Assembly: GCF_001007875.1 (NCBI RefSeq)
Contig: NZ_CP011412.1
Location: 1,488,001 to 1,552,000, forward strand
Direction of reading: 5' to 3'
Source of the DNA: Sedimenticola thiotaurini
GTDB lineage: Bacteria; Pseudomonadota; Gammaproteobacteria; Chromatiales; Chromatiaceae
Length of the DNA stretch: 64,000 nucleotides
A program made the position numbers and the translations under genes. Shown here piece after piece: positions 19,337-25,061 of the stretch (positions within the stretch are counted from its first letter, which is position 1; each line of letters opens with the position of its first letter). The notes beneath the pieces are model-generated. The model did no database searches. It worked only from the letters and a program-made list of their open reading frames with translations, and was not told the origin of the DNA.

Positions 19337-19780
19337 ATGTTTGTGGAAAATCTGCTGGCGGATAAGGATGACCAGATCTGGTCCATCACGCCGGACGCAA
19401 CGGTTTATGAAGCACTGGTGCAGATGGATCGGAAGAATATCGGTGCTCTGCTGGTGATTCAGGGGGGAGAGTTGATCGGCATCCTGTCCGAGCGGGACTA
19501 CGCGCGCAAGATCATTATCAAGGGCAAATCATCCAGAGAGACCCTGGTGAAAGAGGTGATGACCACAGAAGTCTGCTACGTGGGCAGGAAGACGCGCATG
19601 GAGGAGTGCCTGGCCATCATGTCGGACAAGCGCATTCGCCACCTGCCGGTCATGGAGGACGACCAGTTGATCGGCCTGGTCAGTATCGGCGACGTGGTCA
19701 AGAGCATCATCAATGAGCAGGAGATCGTCATCGATCACCTGTACAACTACATCCACGGGGTCTACTACTCACCGCACTGA
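19337..19780 (+). CDS. CBS-pair domain protein
   Basis: 147 residues from ATG 19337 (MFVENLLADKDDQ), 7 bases after AGAGG. An in-frame ATG at 19316 would add 7 residues and has AGGAG 11 bases away. A TATACT at 19293-19298 would start transcription within that AGGAG, which favours 19337. Two CBS motifs are clear: DATVYEALVQMDRKNIGALLVI with SERDYARKI, and RMEECLAIMSDKRIRHLPVM with GDVVKSII. CBS pairs bind adenosyl ligands and regulate a partner. The gene's end overlaps the end of the convergent kinase gene by 16 bases. Confidence 0.9.
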   Translation: MFVENLLADKDDQIWSITPDATVYEALVQMDRKNIGALLVIQGGELIGILSERDYARKIIIKGKSSRETLVKEVMTTEVCYVGRKTRMEECLAIMSDKRIRHLPVMEDDQLIGLVSIGDVVKSIINEQEIVIDHLYNYIHGVYYSPH

Positions 19781-21834
19781 GCGCCGGCCGGAACCGGGAA
19801 AATAACCCGGAACGCCGCACCGGGCTGCTGGTTGAGTACATCCACCCGACCACCCATGGCAGCGGCCAACTGGCTGACCAGGGCCAGTCCGATCCCGGTA
19901 CCAACGGTCTCCCGGGTCAGTTCATTTTCAGAGCGATAAAACAGTCGGAAGATCTTTTTCATCTGGTCCCGGGGCACGCCGGGACCAAAATCCCGGACCG
20001 TGAACACCACCTGGTTGTGCCGTTCCAGCGCTGCCCCTATCTCGATTCGCTGCACTTCTGCCCGGGCGGAGAACTTCAGCGCATTGTCCACCAGGTTGAT
20101 CATGATCTGGCTGAAGCTGTCACTGTCCAGCTTCAGCATGTTGTCCCCTACCACCCCGTCGCTGTGGAGCTCCAGCTGAAAACCGGCCCGGGCCACCGGA
20201 GCACTGATTTTCGTCCGGATACTCTCCATCAGTTGCGCCACACTGACCGGCTTCAACTCCAGGACCAGGCCGTTGCGGGTCATGCGGGCCAGTTGCAGTA
20301 CATTATTGATCAGGCGGCTGAGACGTTCACTCTCGTCATAGATGTAGTCGTAATAGGCCCGCTTTTTCTCTTCACTGGCCCAGCCCTCCCGCAACATCTC
20401 CCCATACATGCGGATCGAGGTCAGAGGTGTCTTCAGTTCATGGCTGATGGCGGAGACAAAATCCTGTTGCTGCCGCGCCAGCGCGATCTGGCGCAGACCG
20501 AGCCGATAGAGCAGATAGAAGCCGCCACACAGCACCAGCAGCAGGATCAGTGCCACCCAGAGGATCAGTCGTCCCCCCGGCCCGGCCGGCAGCTGCCGGA
20601 TACTGTAGATCAACACCATTTCACTCAGGGGAGCGGCAAGACGCGTGCGGTAGAGCAGCGAACCCGTCACGGCCTGGGCCCGGCTCTGGTAAGCGGCGGC
20701 AAGCTGACCACTGAAGGTGCTGAACAGCTCGCCCCGGTAGGCGACGGTCAGCTCACTCATGCCGGACAGGTTGGTCTCCCGGAACAGGTCGCCGATGGCC
20801 GCCTGCAGAAACGGTTGCTGCTCGATCAGCAACCCCTGGATAAAGCGTCGCCCATCCCGCCACACCTTGCGAAACAGCACCAGATGGCCACTATCCAGCA
20901 GGCTGAACTCAAACGGATCCAGCTCACTCTCAAAGGTGTGGATGCGCAGGCCGGACTGACCGGGTCGGGCAGCCGCCGGATCGCCATCAACTTCCGCCTC
21001 GATGGACGTCGGTGCCGGCAGTGCGCTGCGCTCCTTGCGGGCCGTACGCGCCTTGCTCACGGCCACCTTGGGAGCCTCAGGAGCGGCCAGCTGTTCCTCG
21101 AATCGGCGGTCGAGCTGCAGATCCTCCACCCGGCTGCGCGGTTGACTGATGCCCGCTTTGTTCGCCGGTTGGACTTTGCGCTGCACCTGGTTCAGGGCAT
21201 CAAACGCCGCCTGGGGCTGACCGGCACGACCCGCCCGCAGGGCATCGGGTGCGCTGGACAAGCTGCCGGTGGACGGGCGCAGTGAGCTATCATCCGCCGT
21301 CCCATGCTCATCTATCGCCGGGGCGGGAGCCACCGCCGCCTGAACCAGCCGGTTCTCACTGAGGATCTGCTGTAACCGGTTGTGCAGTGACTGTCGCTGT
21401 GCCAGTTCCGCCGCGGAGATACCGTAGCGGGCCGCCTGATCCGGCGGAGCCGGCAACAGCGGCGTACTGAAACGGCCGGCATCATCCACCTGGAAATAGC
21501 CGATCACCCCAGGCAGTGGCGCCTCCACCGGATAGCGGGACAGGGCCGAGCGCTGCACAAATCCCGCCCGGGCCTCCCCCGCCACCACCAGGAAGGCGTA
21601 GTCGGTAAAACCGCGCTGCTCTTCGGTTCCGACCAGGCGCATCAGGCGTTCATTGATACGGCTACTCAGCTCCTCCGCCTGCACCCGGTAGAGGTGGAAC
21701 GCCTCCCACTTGAGCTGGCTGTAGGATTGCTGGATCAGTATGCCGGAGGGGATCAGCAGCGCCAGGAAAAACAGCAGCAGCCAGCGACGCAGCTGTGCGG
21801 GACTGAGACCGGCCAATCGGGATCCAGAGCCCAT
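19765..21834 (-). CDS. Sensor histidine kinase with large Pro/Ala-rich extracytoplasmic region
   Basis: 689 residues from ATG 21834. The first transmembrane helix is at about 17-35 (LLLFFLALLIPSGILIQQ) and the second at about 415-440. The roughly 380-residue periplasmic part contains a Pro/Ala-rich, low-complexity stretch at about 165-300 (PAPAIDEHG..., ERSALPAPTS). The cytosolic half has HisKA with ISHELKTPLTS, the N box NLVDNALKF, the G1 box DFGPGVP and G2 GTGIGLALV. Its start lies 2 bases after the regulator's stop, so they form one operon and probably a cognate pair. Confidence 0.92.
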   Translation of the reverse strand: MGSGSRLAGLSPAQLRRWLLLFFLALLIPSGILIQQSYSQLKWEAFHLYRVQAEELSSRINERLMRLVGTEEQRGFTDYAFLVVAGEARAGFVQRSALSRYPVEAPLPGVIGYFQVDDAGRFSTPLLPAPPDQAARYGISAAELAQRQSLHNRLQQILSENRLVQAAVAPAPAIDEHGTADDSSLRPSTGSLSSAPDALRAGRAGQPQAAFDALNQVQRKVQPANKAGISQPRSRVEDLQLDRRFEEQLAAPEAPKVAVSKARTARKERSALPAPTSIEAEVDGDPAAARPGQSGLRIHTFESELDPFEFSLLDSGHLVLFRKVWRDGRRFIQGLLIEQQPFLQAAIGDLFRETNLSGMSELTVAYRGELFSTFSGQLAAAYQSRAQAVTGSLLYRTRLAAPLSEMVLIYSIRQLPAGPGGRLILWVALILLLVLCGGFYLLYRLGLRQIALARQQQDFVSAISHELKTPLTSIRMYGEMLREGWASEEKKRAYYDYIYDESERLSRLINNVLQLARMTRNGLVLELKPVSVAQLMESIRTKISAPVARAGFQLELHSDGVVGDNMLKLDSDSFSQIMINLVDNALKFSARAEVQRIEIGAALERHNQVVFTVRDFGPGVPRDQMKKIFRLFYRSENELTRETVGTGIGLALVSQLAAAMGGRVDVLNQQPGAAFRVIFPVPAGAQCGE

Positions 21835-21836
21835 GG

Positions 21837-22538
21837 CTACTCCACCAGCAACCGGTAACCGGCGCCGCGTACCGTCACCAGGTAACGGGGATTGGTTGCG
21901 TCCGGCTCGATCTTGCGCCGCAGCTTGGCGATATGGATATCCACCGTGCGGGTCTCCAGGTCGAGATTCCGGGCATAGCCCCACACCCGGGTCAGCAGTT
22001 CATCCCGGGAGACCGGCCGTTCCGCGTTGGCATGCAGATACTGCAGCAGCTCCATCTCCCGGCGGGTAAAGGCGTGCTCCTGATCCCCGCAGCGACCGGA
22101 CAGATTGCGGCAATCCAGCTCCACGGTGTCACCCAGCCGTATCCGGTTCTCCACCTCACCACTGACCCGTGCCCGGCGCAACACCGCCTGCACACGCAGC
22201 ACCAGTTGGGCGACCGAAAACGGCTTTGCCACGTAGTCGTCGGCCCCCAGGGAGAGTCCCTGGATCACATCTTCGTCAGCACTCTTGGCGGTCAACATGA
22301 TGATCGGCTGTTCCCGATCCTGCTCCCTCACCTGGGCACAGATATCGAAACCGTTGACGCCGGGCAGCATCACGTCCAGCAGGAGCAGATCATAGCGTCC
22401 ACTCAGGGCCAGCCGCAGCCCCTCCCGGCCATCTTCGGCGCACTCCACCTGGTAGCCATGAAACACGAACAGATCCACCAGGCCGGTGCGTATGGCCGGT
22501 TCATCTTCCACTATCAACAGACGGATCTTGCGTGACAT
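21837..22538 (-). CDS. OmpR/PhoB-family response regulator
   Basis: 233 residues. The receiver domain begins RLLIVEDEPAIRTGL; LLLLDVMLPGVNGFD carries the phosphorylatable Asp, and AKPFS the conserved Lys. The C-terminal winged helix has FTRREMELLQYLHANAERPVSRDELLTRVWGY and the terminal RGAGYRLL. It is transcribed with the kinase gene directly downstream and is divergent from the pspA-like operon, whose promoter region has OmpR-like direct repeats. It probably controls both. Confidence 0.95.
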   Translation of the reverse strand: MSRKIRLLIVEDEPAIRTGLVDLFVFHGYQVECAEDGREGLRLALSGRYDLLLLDVMLPGVNGFDICAQVREQDREQPIIMLTAKSADEDVIQGLSLGADDYVAKPFSVAQLVLRVQAVLRRARVSGEVENRIRLGDTVELDCRNLSGRCGDQEHAFTRREMELLQYLHANAERPVSRDELLTRVWGYARNLDLETRTVDIHIAKLRRKIEPDATNPRYLVTVRGAGYRLLVE

Positions 22539-22608
22539 CGCTTCCCAGACTCTCTGACATACGGTTTCAGACTGCCCAAAAGCCTACCAGTTTGTGTGAA
22601 CAGCGACA

Positions 22609-22650
22609 TGTAAAACTTTTGTAAACCGGCAGCGGATCATTTTACAAAAC
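22609..22650. promoter_or_regulatory. TGTAAA repeat cluster in the divergent promoter region
   Basis: TGTAAAAC (22609-22616) and TGTAAACC (22620-22627) start 11 bases apart, one helical turn. The exact 9-bp inverse of TTTTGTAAA (22617-22625) appears at 22641-22649. Tandem half-sites spaced about 11 bp are how OmpR/PhoB-type regulators bind. The cluster lies between the regulator gene and the pspA-like gene, so it is a good candidate operator for the adjacent regulator. Confidence 0.55.
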
Positions 22651-22727
22651 CGCTCCTACAAGCGGCCGATGGCCAACCCTAGACTGTATCCATCCCATCA
22701 CCAGGACCAGTCAACAGGAGGTCATCC

Positions 22728-23264
22728 ATGGCATTGATAAACCGAATATCCCGACTCTTCCGGGCCGACCTGCATGCGGTACTCGACCGTATAGAGGAGC
22801 CGGATCTGCTGCTTAAACAGGCGATCCGGGAGATGGAGTCGGCCTACGCCGAGCAGAGCCAACGCAGTCGCCTGCTTAAGCATGAACTGGCGCAGCTGAA
22901 CAGCCGCCTGCAGGGGTGGCAGGAGAAGCTGGCCGGCATGGATCAGGAGCTGGATATCTGTTTTCAATCAGACCAGGAGTCCCTGGCCAGGCAGCTGATC
23001 CGGAAAAAACTGGAGCTGGCACAGTTCGCCGAGCAACAGCAGCGCCGCCGTGACAGCCTGCACCAGACCCTGGCCGAACTGTCCAGGCGTCAGGATGAGA
23101 ACCGCACCCGACTGGAGAGCCTGCGTCAGAAGGCCCGGTTGCTGGCAAGTGACGCAGCACCGGACAGGGAGCACAACAGCGGAGGCCCCGAACCGATCCG
23201 GGTCGAGGAGGCGGACGTGGAGGTCGCCTTTCTGCGGGAGAAACAGCGCAGGAGTCAGTCATGA
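22728..23264 (+). CDS. PspA/IM30-family membrane-stress protein (short form)
   Basis: 178 residues against about 222 in E. coli PspA. It is almost entirely coiled coil. The N-terminus LINRISRLFRADLHAVLDRIEEPDLLLKQAIREME is the diagnostic PspA helix, where an amphipathic segment docks on the membrane, but the characteristic later helices are shortened. A strong CAGGAGG precedes the start. The stop overlaps the next ATG by 4 bases (ATGA). No pspB, pspC or pspF lies nearby, so sigma-54/PspF control is not expected; the divergent two-component system is the likely regulator. Confidence 0.85.
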   Translation: MALINRISRLFRADLHAVLDRIEEPDLLLKQAIREMESAYAEQSQRSRLLKHELAQLNSRLQGWQEKLAGMDQELDICFQSDQESLARQLIRKKLELAQFAEQQQRRRDSLHQTLAELSRRQDENRTRLESLRQKARLLASDAAPDREHNSGGPEPIRVEEADVEVAFLREKQRRSQS

Positions 23265-23833
23265 AACGGCCCACTTTTCTGGAAGGGGTCGGCATCGCCC
23301 TGGCCGCCAGCCTGACCGGTTCGATCCTGTTCAGCGCCCTGTCACCGGTGATGCCGGATCTCCCCCTGCTGAAACTGCTGATTGCCGGGCTCGGCCTGGC
23401 CTACAGTCTCTACCTGTTCCGACGCAGCAGTGAACGGCTGGGTCGGCTGGTTACCGCCGTTGTCTGGCTGATCTGCGCCATCCTGATCGGCTTGCTGGAT
23501 CCGCCGCTCACGCTCTATCTGGCGCTGCACATCGGCCTGATCTGGCTGATTCGCTCGCTCTATTTCCACAGCAGTCCGCTCTCTGCCCTGGCGGACCTGG
23601 GGCTGAGCGGACTGGGCCTGGCGGCCGCCATCTGGGCGGCCCTGCACACCGGCAGCCTGCTGCTCACCATCTGGTGCTTTTTTCTGTTGCAGGCGCTGTT
23701 CAGCGCCATCCCCGCCGATCTGAAAAAAACCACCCGGGACAACCGATCGTCAGGGCACTCAACCGACCGCTTCCAGCAGGCCGAACAGGCCGCCGAGGCC
23801 GCTCTGTGTCGCCTGACATCCATGCATCGATAA
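23261..23833 (+). CDS. Polytopic membrane protein of the PspA-like operon
   Basis: 190 residues with about six hydrophobic helices between residues 7 and 150. Examples are LALHIGLIWLIRSLYF and SLLLTIWCFFLLQALF. A hydrophilic, basic then acidic tail follows (about 155-190). I recognise no domain name. Translation is coupled to the PspA-like gene by a 4-base overlap, and the VWA gene follows after 16 bases. It could be the membrane anchor or partner for the PspA-like protein. Confidence 0.8.
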   Translation: MKRPTFLEGVGIALAASLTGSILFSALSPVMPDLPLLKLLIAGLGLAYSLYLFRRSSERLGRLVTAVVWLICAILIGLLDPPLTLYLALHIGLIWLIRSLYFHSSPLSALADLGLSGLGLAAAIWAALHTGSLLLTIWCFFLLQALFSAIPADLKKTTRDNRSSGHSTDRFQQAEQAAEAALCRLTSMHR

Positions 23834-23849
23834 CCAAGGGAACAACATC

Positions 23850-25061
23850 ATGAAAGCAAAAATCATCGCCATTTCGTTATTCACCGCCACCGCAGGCGGT
23901 ATCGTCCTCTATCCCGCCTACCAGGGCACCGGCGCCGTGGCAGCGCCGATCATCCAGCCGGCTCAGCCGCCGCAAACCGATCCGGCCATCCGGCAGCAGC
24001 AGCGCATCGAAGTGGTGTTCGTGCTGGATACCACCGGCAGCATGGGCGGTATGATCCAGGCGGCCAAGGAGAAGATCTGGTCCATCGCCAGCTCCATGGC
24101 TTCCGCCGAGTCGGCCCCGGAGATCCGCATGGGCCTGGTGGCCTATCGGGATCGGGGGGACAGCTATATCACCCGGGTACTGGATCTGTCGGATGATCTG
24201 GACAGCATGTACGCGGCCCTGATGGAGTTCCAGGCGGCGGGTGGCGGCGACGGCCCGGAGAGTGTCAACCAGGCCCTGAATGATGCGCTCAACCGGATCT
24301 CCTGGAGCCAGGATGAGAACAGCTACCGGGTGGTCTTCCTGGTGGGGGATGCACCGCCCCACATGGACTATAACGAAGTGCAATATCCCGCTCTGGTCGG
24401 CCAGGCCAGACAGCGGGGCATCCTGATCAATACCATCCAGTGCGGTGAGGACCGCAACACCCGGCAGAGCTGGAGCCGTATCGCCCAACAGGGCGGCGGC
24501 CGCTATTTCCAGGTGGAACAAAGCGGCGGCGCCCTGGCCATCACCACCCCCTTCGATGCAGAGATCGCCAGCCTGTCAGAAGCGCTGGACCGGACCCGTA
24601 TCTACTACGGCAGCGCGGCAGACAAACGGCTCCAGCAGAAGAAGTTGGCCGCCAGCGAGAAACTGCATGCGGACGCGTCGGTGGCCTCCCGCGCCCGCCG
24701 CGCCACCTTCAACGCCTCGTCGAGCGGCAAGGCGAACTTTCTCGGCAAGGGTGAACTGGTGGATGATATCGCCAGCGGCCGGGTCGATATCGCCACCATT
24801 GAAACGGAAAAACTGCCCGCCCCCATGCAGGCCATGGCGCCGGAGGAGCAGCAGGCGTTGATCGAGGAGCAGGCGGCGACACGTCAGGCACTGCAACAGA
24901 AGATCAGCCGACTGGCGGAACAGCGGGCCGACTATATCCGTCAGAAAGTGGCACAGAGCGGCGAAGCGGAGGAGTCTCTGGATTACAAGCTCTACAGCAC
25001 CATCAGGGAGCAGGCCGTCGAGAAAGGCCTGCACTACCAGGCAGACGCGCCTGCATACTGA
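23850..25061 (+). CDS. Secreted or membrane-anchored von Willebrand A domain protein
   Basis: 403 residues. An N-terminal hydrophobic segment (about 4-30) suggests a signal peptide or anchor, placing the protein outside the cytosol. The VWA domain (about 52-240) starts EVVFVLDTTGSMGGMI; the D-x-T-G-S MIDAS residues are intact, with Asp in YRDRGD and DGPESV nearby. The C-terminal 150 residues are Gln/Glu/Ala-rich and helical (RQALQQKISRLAEQRADYI). No LPXTG-like sorting signal is present. It is the last gene of the PspA-like operon and may be a periplasmic metal-dependent interaction module. Confidence 0.88.
   Translation: MKAKIIAISLFTATAGGIVLYPAYQGTGAVAAPIIQPAQPPQTDPAIRQQQRIEVVFVLDTTGSMGGMIQAAKEKIWSIASSMASAESAPEIRMGLVAYRDRGDSYITRVLDLSDDLDSMYAALMEFQAAGGGDGPESVNQALNDALNRISWSQDENSYRVVFLVGDAPPHMDYNEVQYPALVGQARQRGILINTIQCGEDRNTRQSWSRIAQQGGGRYFQVEQSGGALAITTPFDAEIASLSEALDRTRIYYGSAADKRLQQKKLAASEKLHADASVASRARRATFNASSSGKANFLGKGELVDDIASGRVDIATIETEKLPAPMQAMAPEEQQALIEEQAATRQALQQKISRLAEQRADYIRQKVAQSGEAEESLDYKLYSTIREQAVEKGLHYQADAPAY

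Follow-up and report, generated by a model that had tools for sequence, protein, structure and literature searches.

Conserved TGTAAA repeats between a two-component system and a PspA-like operon in Sedimenticola thiotaurini and related gammaproteobacteria as a probable operator of the adjacent OmpR/PhoB-family regulator

The window, namely the whole 64,000-nucleotide stretch of the Sedimenticola thiotaurini genome analyzed here, contains an intergenic gap flanked by divergent genes. A response regulator and its kinase are coded leftward of it, and three genes, coding for a PspA/IM30-like protein, a hydrophobic protein and a VWA protein, run rightward. The response regulator (positions 21837-22538, minus strand, 233 aa), the presumed binder of the repeats described below, combines a receiver domain (Response_reg, PF00072, 103 bits) with a winged-helix domain (Trans_reg_C, PF00486, 85.8 bits), both above cut-off, which bears out the OmpR-family assignment made in the initial annotation and places the protein in the OmpR/PhoB family. 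The sensor histidine kinase (19765-21834, minus strand, 689 aa) carries HisKA and HATPase_c domains (Pfam search of 19765-21831), and its ATG at 21834 lies directly past the regulator stop codon. On the other side of the gap, the first gene codes for a short PspA/IM30-like coiled-coil protein (22728-23264, plus strand, 178 aa), whose PF04012 score of 52.8 bits against a cut-off of 33.9 places it within the PspA/IM30 superfamily. The same protein scores 35.3 bits for the PspA equivalog TIGR02977, far under the cut-off of 242.95, and 34.3 bits for the LiaH equivalog (cut-off 380), the marker of a Lia-type PspA response. It is followed by a hydrophobic protein, presumably of the membrane, that belongs to no known family (23261-23833, plus strand, 190 aa; zero Pfam or NCBIfam matches) and is kept beside the PspA-like gene in relatives, and by a VWA-domain protein with a hydrophobic N-terminus (23850-25061, plus strand, 403 aa; VWA_4 and VWA above cut-off).

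The five-gene order is unchanged in most relatives. The PspA-like protein was found in 29 of the 112 genomes searched, its own genome included, and when named genomes were scanned with the regulator, further loci came to light, such as that of Sedimenticola hydrogenitrophicus (88% identity). The recognition-helix region of the regulator, TRTVDIH.AK, is unchanged in all 21 aligned regulators. In the nine genomes of the genus, the PspA-like gene is the only PspA-family gene found, with one such gene per genome in eight of the nine. None of these nine genomes codes for a PspF above cut-off, the activator expected for a PspF-controlled Psp response, and classical PspF/sigma54 control was rejected on this ground.

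Three hexamers occupy the center of the gap, with TGTAAAAC starting at 22609, TGTAAACC starting 11 bp further at 22620, and TTTACAAAA starting at 22641. A second reading of the window confirmed these positions and the 11-base offset exactly as they had first been noted. Half-site 1 (22609-22614) and half-site 2 (22620-22625) thus read TGTAAA on the plus strand, and half-site 3 (22641-22646) reads TTTACA on the plus strand, i.e., TGTAAA on the minus strand. With up to one mismatch, TGTAAA-N5-TGTAAA occurs once in the 64-kb window, against a mean of 0.04 in shuffled sequence. The exact pair occurs twice in the whole genome (3.96 Mb), where about 0.09 copies would be expected from base composition alone, and the composite that includes the third half-site occurs a single time genome-wide. 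The second exact pair (L001) was rejected as a regulon member, since it lies shortly past a tRNA-like stretch and by eye displays no sign of a regulated promoter. The three-motif arrangement is far beyond chance.

Conservation of the repeats was assessed in 44 loci (L007-L050), which yielded 34 distinct divergent gaps, anchored on the half-sites. Eight loci were dropped because the segment covered lacks a divergent pair of regulator and PspA-like gene (L025, L030, L031, L035, L042, L045, L049 and L050) and two as exact duplicates (L036 and L047); L042, L045, L049 and L050 were analyzed separately. GTAA-N7-GTAAA and TTTAC are invariant in all 34 gaps, so that the repeats, whose absence from relatives had been named as a possible refutation, are present in every relative aligned. 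The last A of half-site 1 is retained in 32 of the 34. The spacing of the half-sites is fixed, with 15 nt between the second and third in 25 gaps and 16 nt in the other 9, and the spacers themselves vary and are nearly information-free. The strict TGTAAA pair is present in 29/34 real gaps and the composite as written in 31/34, compared to 1 and 0, respectively, of 10,200 shuffled gaps. Of 65 sequences taken from upstream of other OmpR-type regulator genes (L051-L115), none contains the tandem pair. A longer composite, allowing up to three mismatches, was found once each in seven of the nine genus genomes, always at the PspA-like locus and with zero control matches; this search revealed no second operator site in Sedimenticola.

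Positions to which the alignment was not anchored are conserved as well, and these mark features that the initial annotation had overlooked, namely an element at 22653-22659 and two predicted -10 boxes. On the regulator side, a predicted extended -10 (TGGTAGGCT, minus strand) lies at 22581-22589; a TAnnnT occurs 20-22 nt from half-site 1 in 31/34 relatives, and the extended form TGnTAnnnT in 24/34. For the pspA-like operon, a -10 is predicted at TAGACT (22680-22685, plus strand), 33 nt past half-site 3, and its A(-11) and T(-7) are found in 34/34 gaps, while TAnnnT occurs at exactly 33 nt in 29/34. The additional element (plus strand, consensus TG[CT]CTAC) lies where the -35 of the pspA promoter would be expected, its C and T being conserved in 34/34, its G in 33/34 and its A in 26/34; the window version, CTCCTAC, is the sole sequence of the 34 without the G. 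It is possibly a degenerate fourth half-site. Its reading as a normal -35 was rejected, as the spacer would be 20-21 nt. A sigma70 consensus scan of the gap gave no match, which was read as a missing -35 on both sides, and a search with Rfam detected no known RNA element in the gap at the gathering threshold.

The gap is thus predicted to hold two divergent sigma70-type promoters back to back, each with a recognizable -10 and no good -35, and with transcription starts near 22574 (minus strand) and 22692 (plus strand). If the -10 boxes are real, a TTTAC would lie at approximately -51 at each of the two promoters and point the same way with respect to transcription, whereby half-site 2 would span about -51 to -46 on the regulator side and half-site 3 the same interval on the pspA side. 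Closer to each start, the regulator side would present a second TTTACA at -40 (half-site 1, about -40 to -35), and the pspA side would present G[CT]CTA at -38. Since 11 bp separate the centers of half-sites 1 and 2, and 20-21 bp those of half-sites 2 and 3, all three can share one face of the helix.

The distribution of the operator was compared with that of the regulator in 369 gammaproteobacterial genomes, 21 of which are regulator-positive (profile match at E <= 1e-75). Matches to the composite numbered 29, spread over 27 genomes, against 13 for the backwards pattern: 19 in a regulator/PspA-like gap, three immediately in front of VWA genes (L131, L138 and L143) and seven that look like chance, matches of this last kind occurring in genomes without the regulator. 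The exact composite is located at the locus in 18 of the 21 regulator-positive genomes; any match at all was found in 8 of the 348 others (Fisher p ~1e-21, ignoring relatedness). The remaining three of the 21 carry near variants, one with a 14-nt gap (L154) and two with TGTAAC as first half-site (L155 and L161). One of the eight matching genomes outside the 21 (G102) possesses the locus with a broken regulator frame; in this single-contig genome (L125) the operator and the PspA-like gene are intact, and the break may be a real loss or a sequencing error.

A family-level scan of 116 genomes with a looser gap produced 37 matches, against 4 for the backwards pattern, and 33 of the 37 adjoin a PspA-like gene. 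Of the other four, L205 precedes a VWA homologue, L195 lies at the end of a contig, L202 is an operator whose genes are missing, and L178 looks like a chance match. At L202 (G477, 1501-1536), a full operator with G[CT]CT and TAGACT is found, and the regulator and PspA-like gene are absent within 1.5 kb; it is possibly a remnant. Two genomes, G054 and G063, encode a PspA-like match and have no composite match.

In some loci the genes next to the regulator have been exchanged. In L042 the operator is kept, the VWA gene alone is divergent and no PspA-like gene lies beside the regulator. L049 (Shewanella hanedai) and L050 (Pseudoalteromonas rubra) carry similar boxes, with a repeat spacing of 10 bp rather than 11 bp, in front of unrelated divergent genes. 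The retention of the boxes in these three loci, none of which has an adjoining PspA-like gene, indicates that the operator follows the regulator rather than pspA. By eye, a hydrolase-like gene followed by one for a membrane-fusion-type protein faces the regulator relative in L049 (3840-5696), as does a gene for a membrane-fusion-type protein in L050. No box was seen in L045, within the 164 bp available.

Copies of the operator also occur away from the locus. The composites at L138, L143 and L205 lie upstream of homologues of the window VWA gene in genomes that contain the regulator, and the proteins concerned share 25-31% identity with the window VWA protein and 37-49% among themselves. The protein downstream of L131 has a VWA domain according to Pfam, without detectable similarity to the window VWA protein, and its genome lacks a regulator match. 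This operator (G243, 278-313) lies upstream of an unrelated VWA-domain gene, and its other side is near a contig end. The extra copies directly upstream of VWA-domain genes suggest that the regulator controls a small regulon, which in some genomes would include VWA paralogues.

Taken together, the repeats in all likelihood form a genuine operator, assembled from known parts in an apparently uncharacterized system, and the adjacent regulator is its most likely binder. The explanation in which we have good confidence is that they constitute the operator of this OmpR/PhoB-family protein, which would activate both sides; the sequence, its conservation, the fixed geometry and the co-occurrence are observed, and binding, phosphorylation, activation as opposed to repression and the stress signal are inferred. 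According to the proposed mechanism, envelope or membrane stress would lead the sensor kinase to phosphorylate the regulator, whose subunits would bind the half-sites in head-to-tail fashion and bring RNA polymerase to the two promoters. Docking would involve two perfect half-sites 11 bp apart on the regulator side, and TTTAC together with G[CT]CTA in place of a second half-site on the pspA side. The outcome would be positive autoregulation, with the PspA-like, membrane and VWA genes induced as well and, in some genomes, VWA paralogues located elsewhere. A conserved switch of this kind would probably allow the regulator to activate its own gene and a membrane-stress operon in many gammaproteobacteria. 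The presence of just one clear TTTAC half-site on the pspA side, where the window also lacks the conserved G, counts against this reading, as do the 10-bp spacing in L049 and L050, the PspA-like matches of G054 and G063 in the absence of a composite, the boxless L045 and the chance-like operator matches in genomes that lack the regulator.

The sign of control is the point at which a different explanation carries most weight. The same operator and binder could serve to repress one or both promoters, for example if the regulator represses itself and activates pspA, since OmpR-family regulators are capable of either sign, in a study of VicR the location of the box gave no indication of whether control was positive or negative (PMC4168254), and half-site 1, at -40 to -35 of the regulator promoter, lies where a protein could block the polymerase. 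Yet neither predicted -10 box is covered by a half-site, and promoters without a -35, one of them with an extended -10, have the usual look of activated ones; we thus consider repression unlikely, although it deserves more weight than the explanations that follow. The identity of the binder is another matter, as the sequence also suits WalR- and CpxR-type regulators, such that the site alone does not name the protein that binds it. The operator of WalR/YycF/VicR in Firmicutes, TGTWAH-N5-TGTWAH (PMC4168254), and the CpxR box, GTAAA-N4-8-GTAAA, which functions in either orientation (PMC5063474), both match, and the neighboring regulator might then be a mere target of another OmpR-family protein. 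This is improbable, given that the operator tracks the neighboring regulator over genomes and gene swaps and that all proteins of the genome itself score below the CpxR cut-off (best 187.7 against 341 bits).

The conservation might instead reflect an RNA element or shared core-promoter sequence, as the gap does hold two promoters, which themselves conserve -10 bases. The invariant bases, however, have the spacing of tandem half-sites and precede the predicted starts by 35-83 bp, outside the predicted transcripts, the Rfam search was negative, and the composite also precedes VWA genes that have no regulator gap, all of which renders this explanation very improbable. The second exact TGTAAA-N5-TGTAAA of the genome, which appears unrelated, illustrates that such pairs could be functionless products of chance; the 34/34 conservation, the 0/65 controls and the co-occurrence over genomes leave this a negligible prospect for the repeats in the gap, and their conservation in relatives refutes it.

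Activation of both sides by the adjacent regulator can be extended, tentatively and with more doubt than belief, to a self-contained, Lia-like membrane-stress system of gammaproteobacteria that lack PspF, in which an OmpR/PhoB two-component system would drive the cell's single PspA-family protein along with a membrane protein and a VWA protein. The mirrored promoter would offer two perfect half-sites for the regulator and one perfect plus one degenerate for the effectors, and for this reason autoactivation would come first, the effectors responding at high levels of phosphorylated regulator. The present work assigns a specific operator that is open to testing, along with a small predicted regulon, to an apparently uncharacterized two-component system tied to a PspA-family gene. 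If the proposal is true, PspF is not the universal controller of membrane protection by PspA in gammaproteobacteria. The gene set was not found in the keyword-matched passages of two Psp surveys (PMC11237479, PMC9239133) or by a keyword search of the literature, and may still be published.

In comparison with known systems, the regulator reaches the curated cut-off of none of the named families among the 25 NCBIfam matches listed. The best of these is RpaB, at 196.5 bits against a cut-off of 330. The RpaB HLR1 element of cyanobacteria likewise consists of TTACA-type direct repeats, yet with a spacing of 10 bp as opposed to 11 bp here. The sortase-linked PdsR (TIGR03787) was rejected as the identity of the regulator, because the score of 106.9 bits is far under the cut-off of 335.7 and a true PdsR-type regulator is coded elsewhere in the genome (C1:2020878-2021555, 379.7 bits). 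WalR/YycF/VicR shares both half-sites, the exact 11-bp spacing and an envelope-linked regulator of the OmpR/PhoB family (PMC4168254), whereas the regulator described here falls short of the YycF cut-off (177.6 against 340 bits), and the composite has in addition a third half-site in inverted orientation and a divergently transcribed PspA-like operon. CpxR has in common the GTAAA repeat core and the theme of envelope stress (PMC5063474), but its kinase and target genes differ, and orthology was rejected (134.9 bits, cut-off 341). The PspF - pspABC arrangement resembles the locus in that a PspA-family gene is divergent from its presumed regulator across a shared central promoter region (PMC11237479), yet the locus has no PspF-type enhancer-binding activator and its predicted promoters are sigma70-like. 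The nearest functional parallel is LiaRS of Bacillus, a two-component system which controls liaIH, coding for the PspA homologue LiaH and its membrane partner (PMC9239133); the system described here differs in its OmpR/PhoB-type regulator, in the VWA protein of its operon and in its gammaproteobacterial host.
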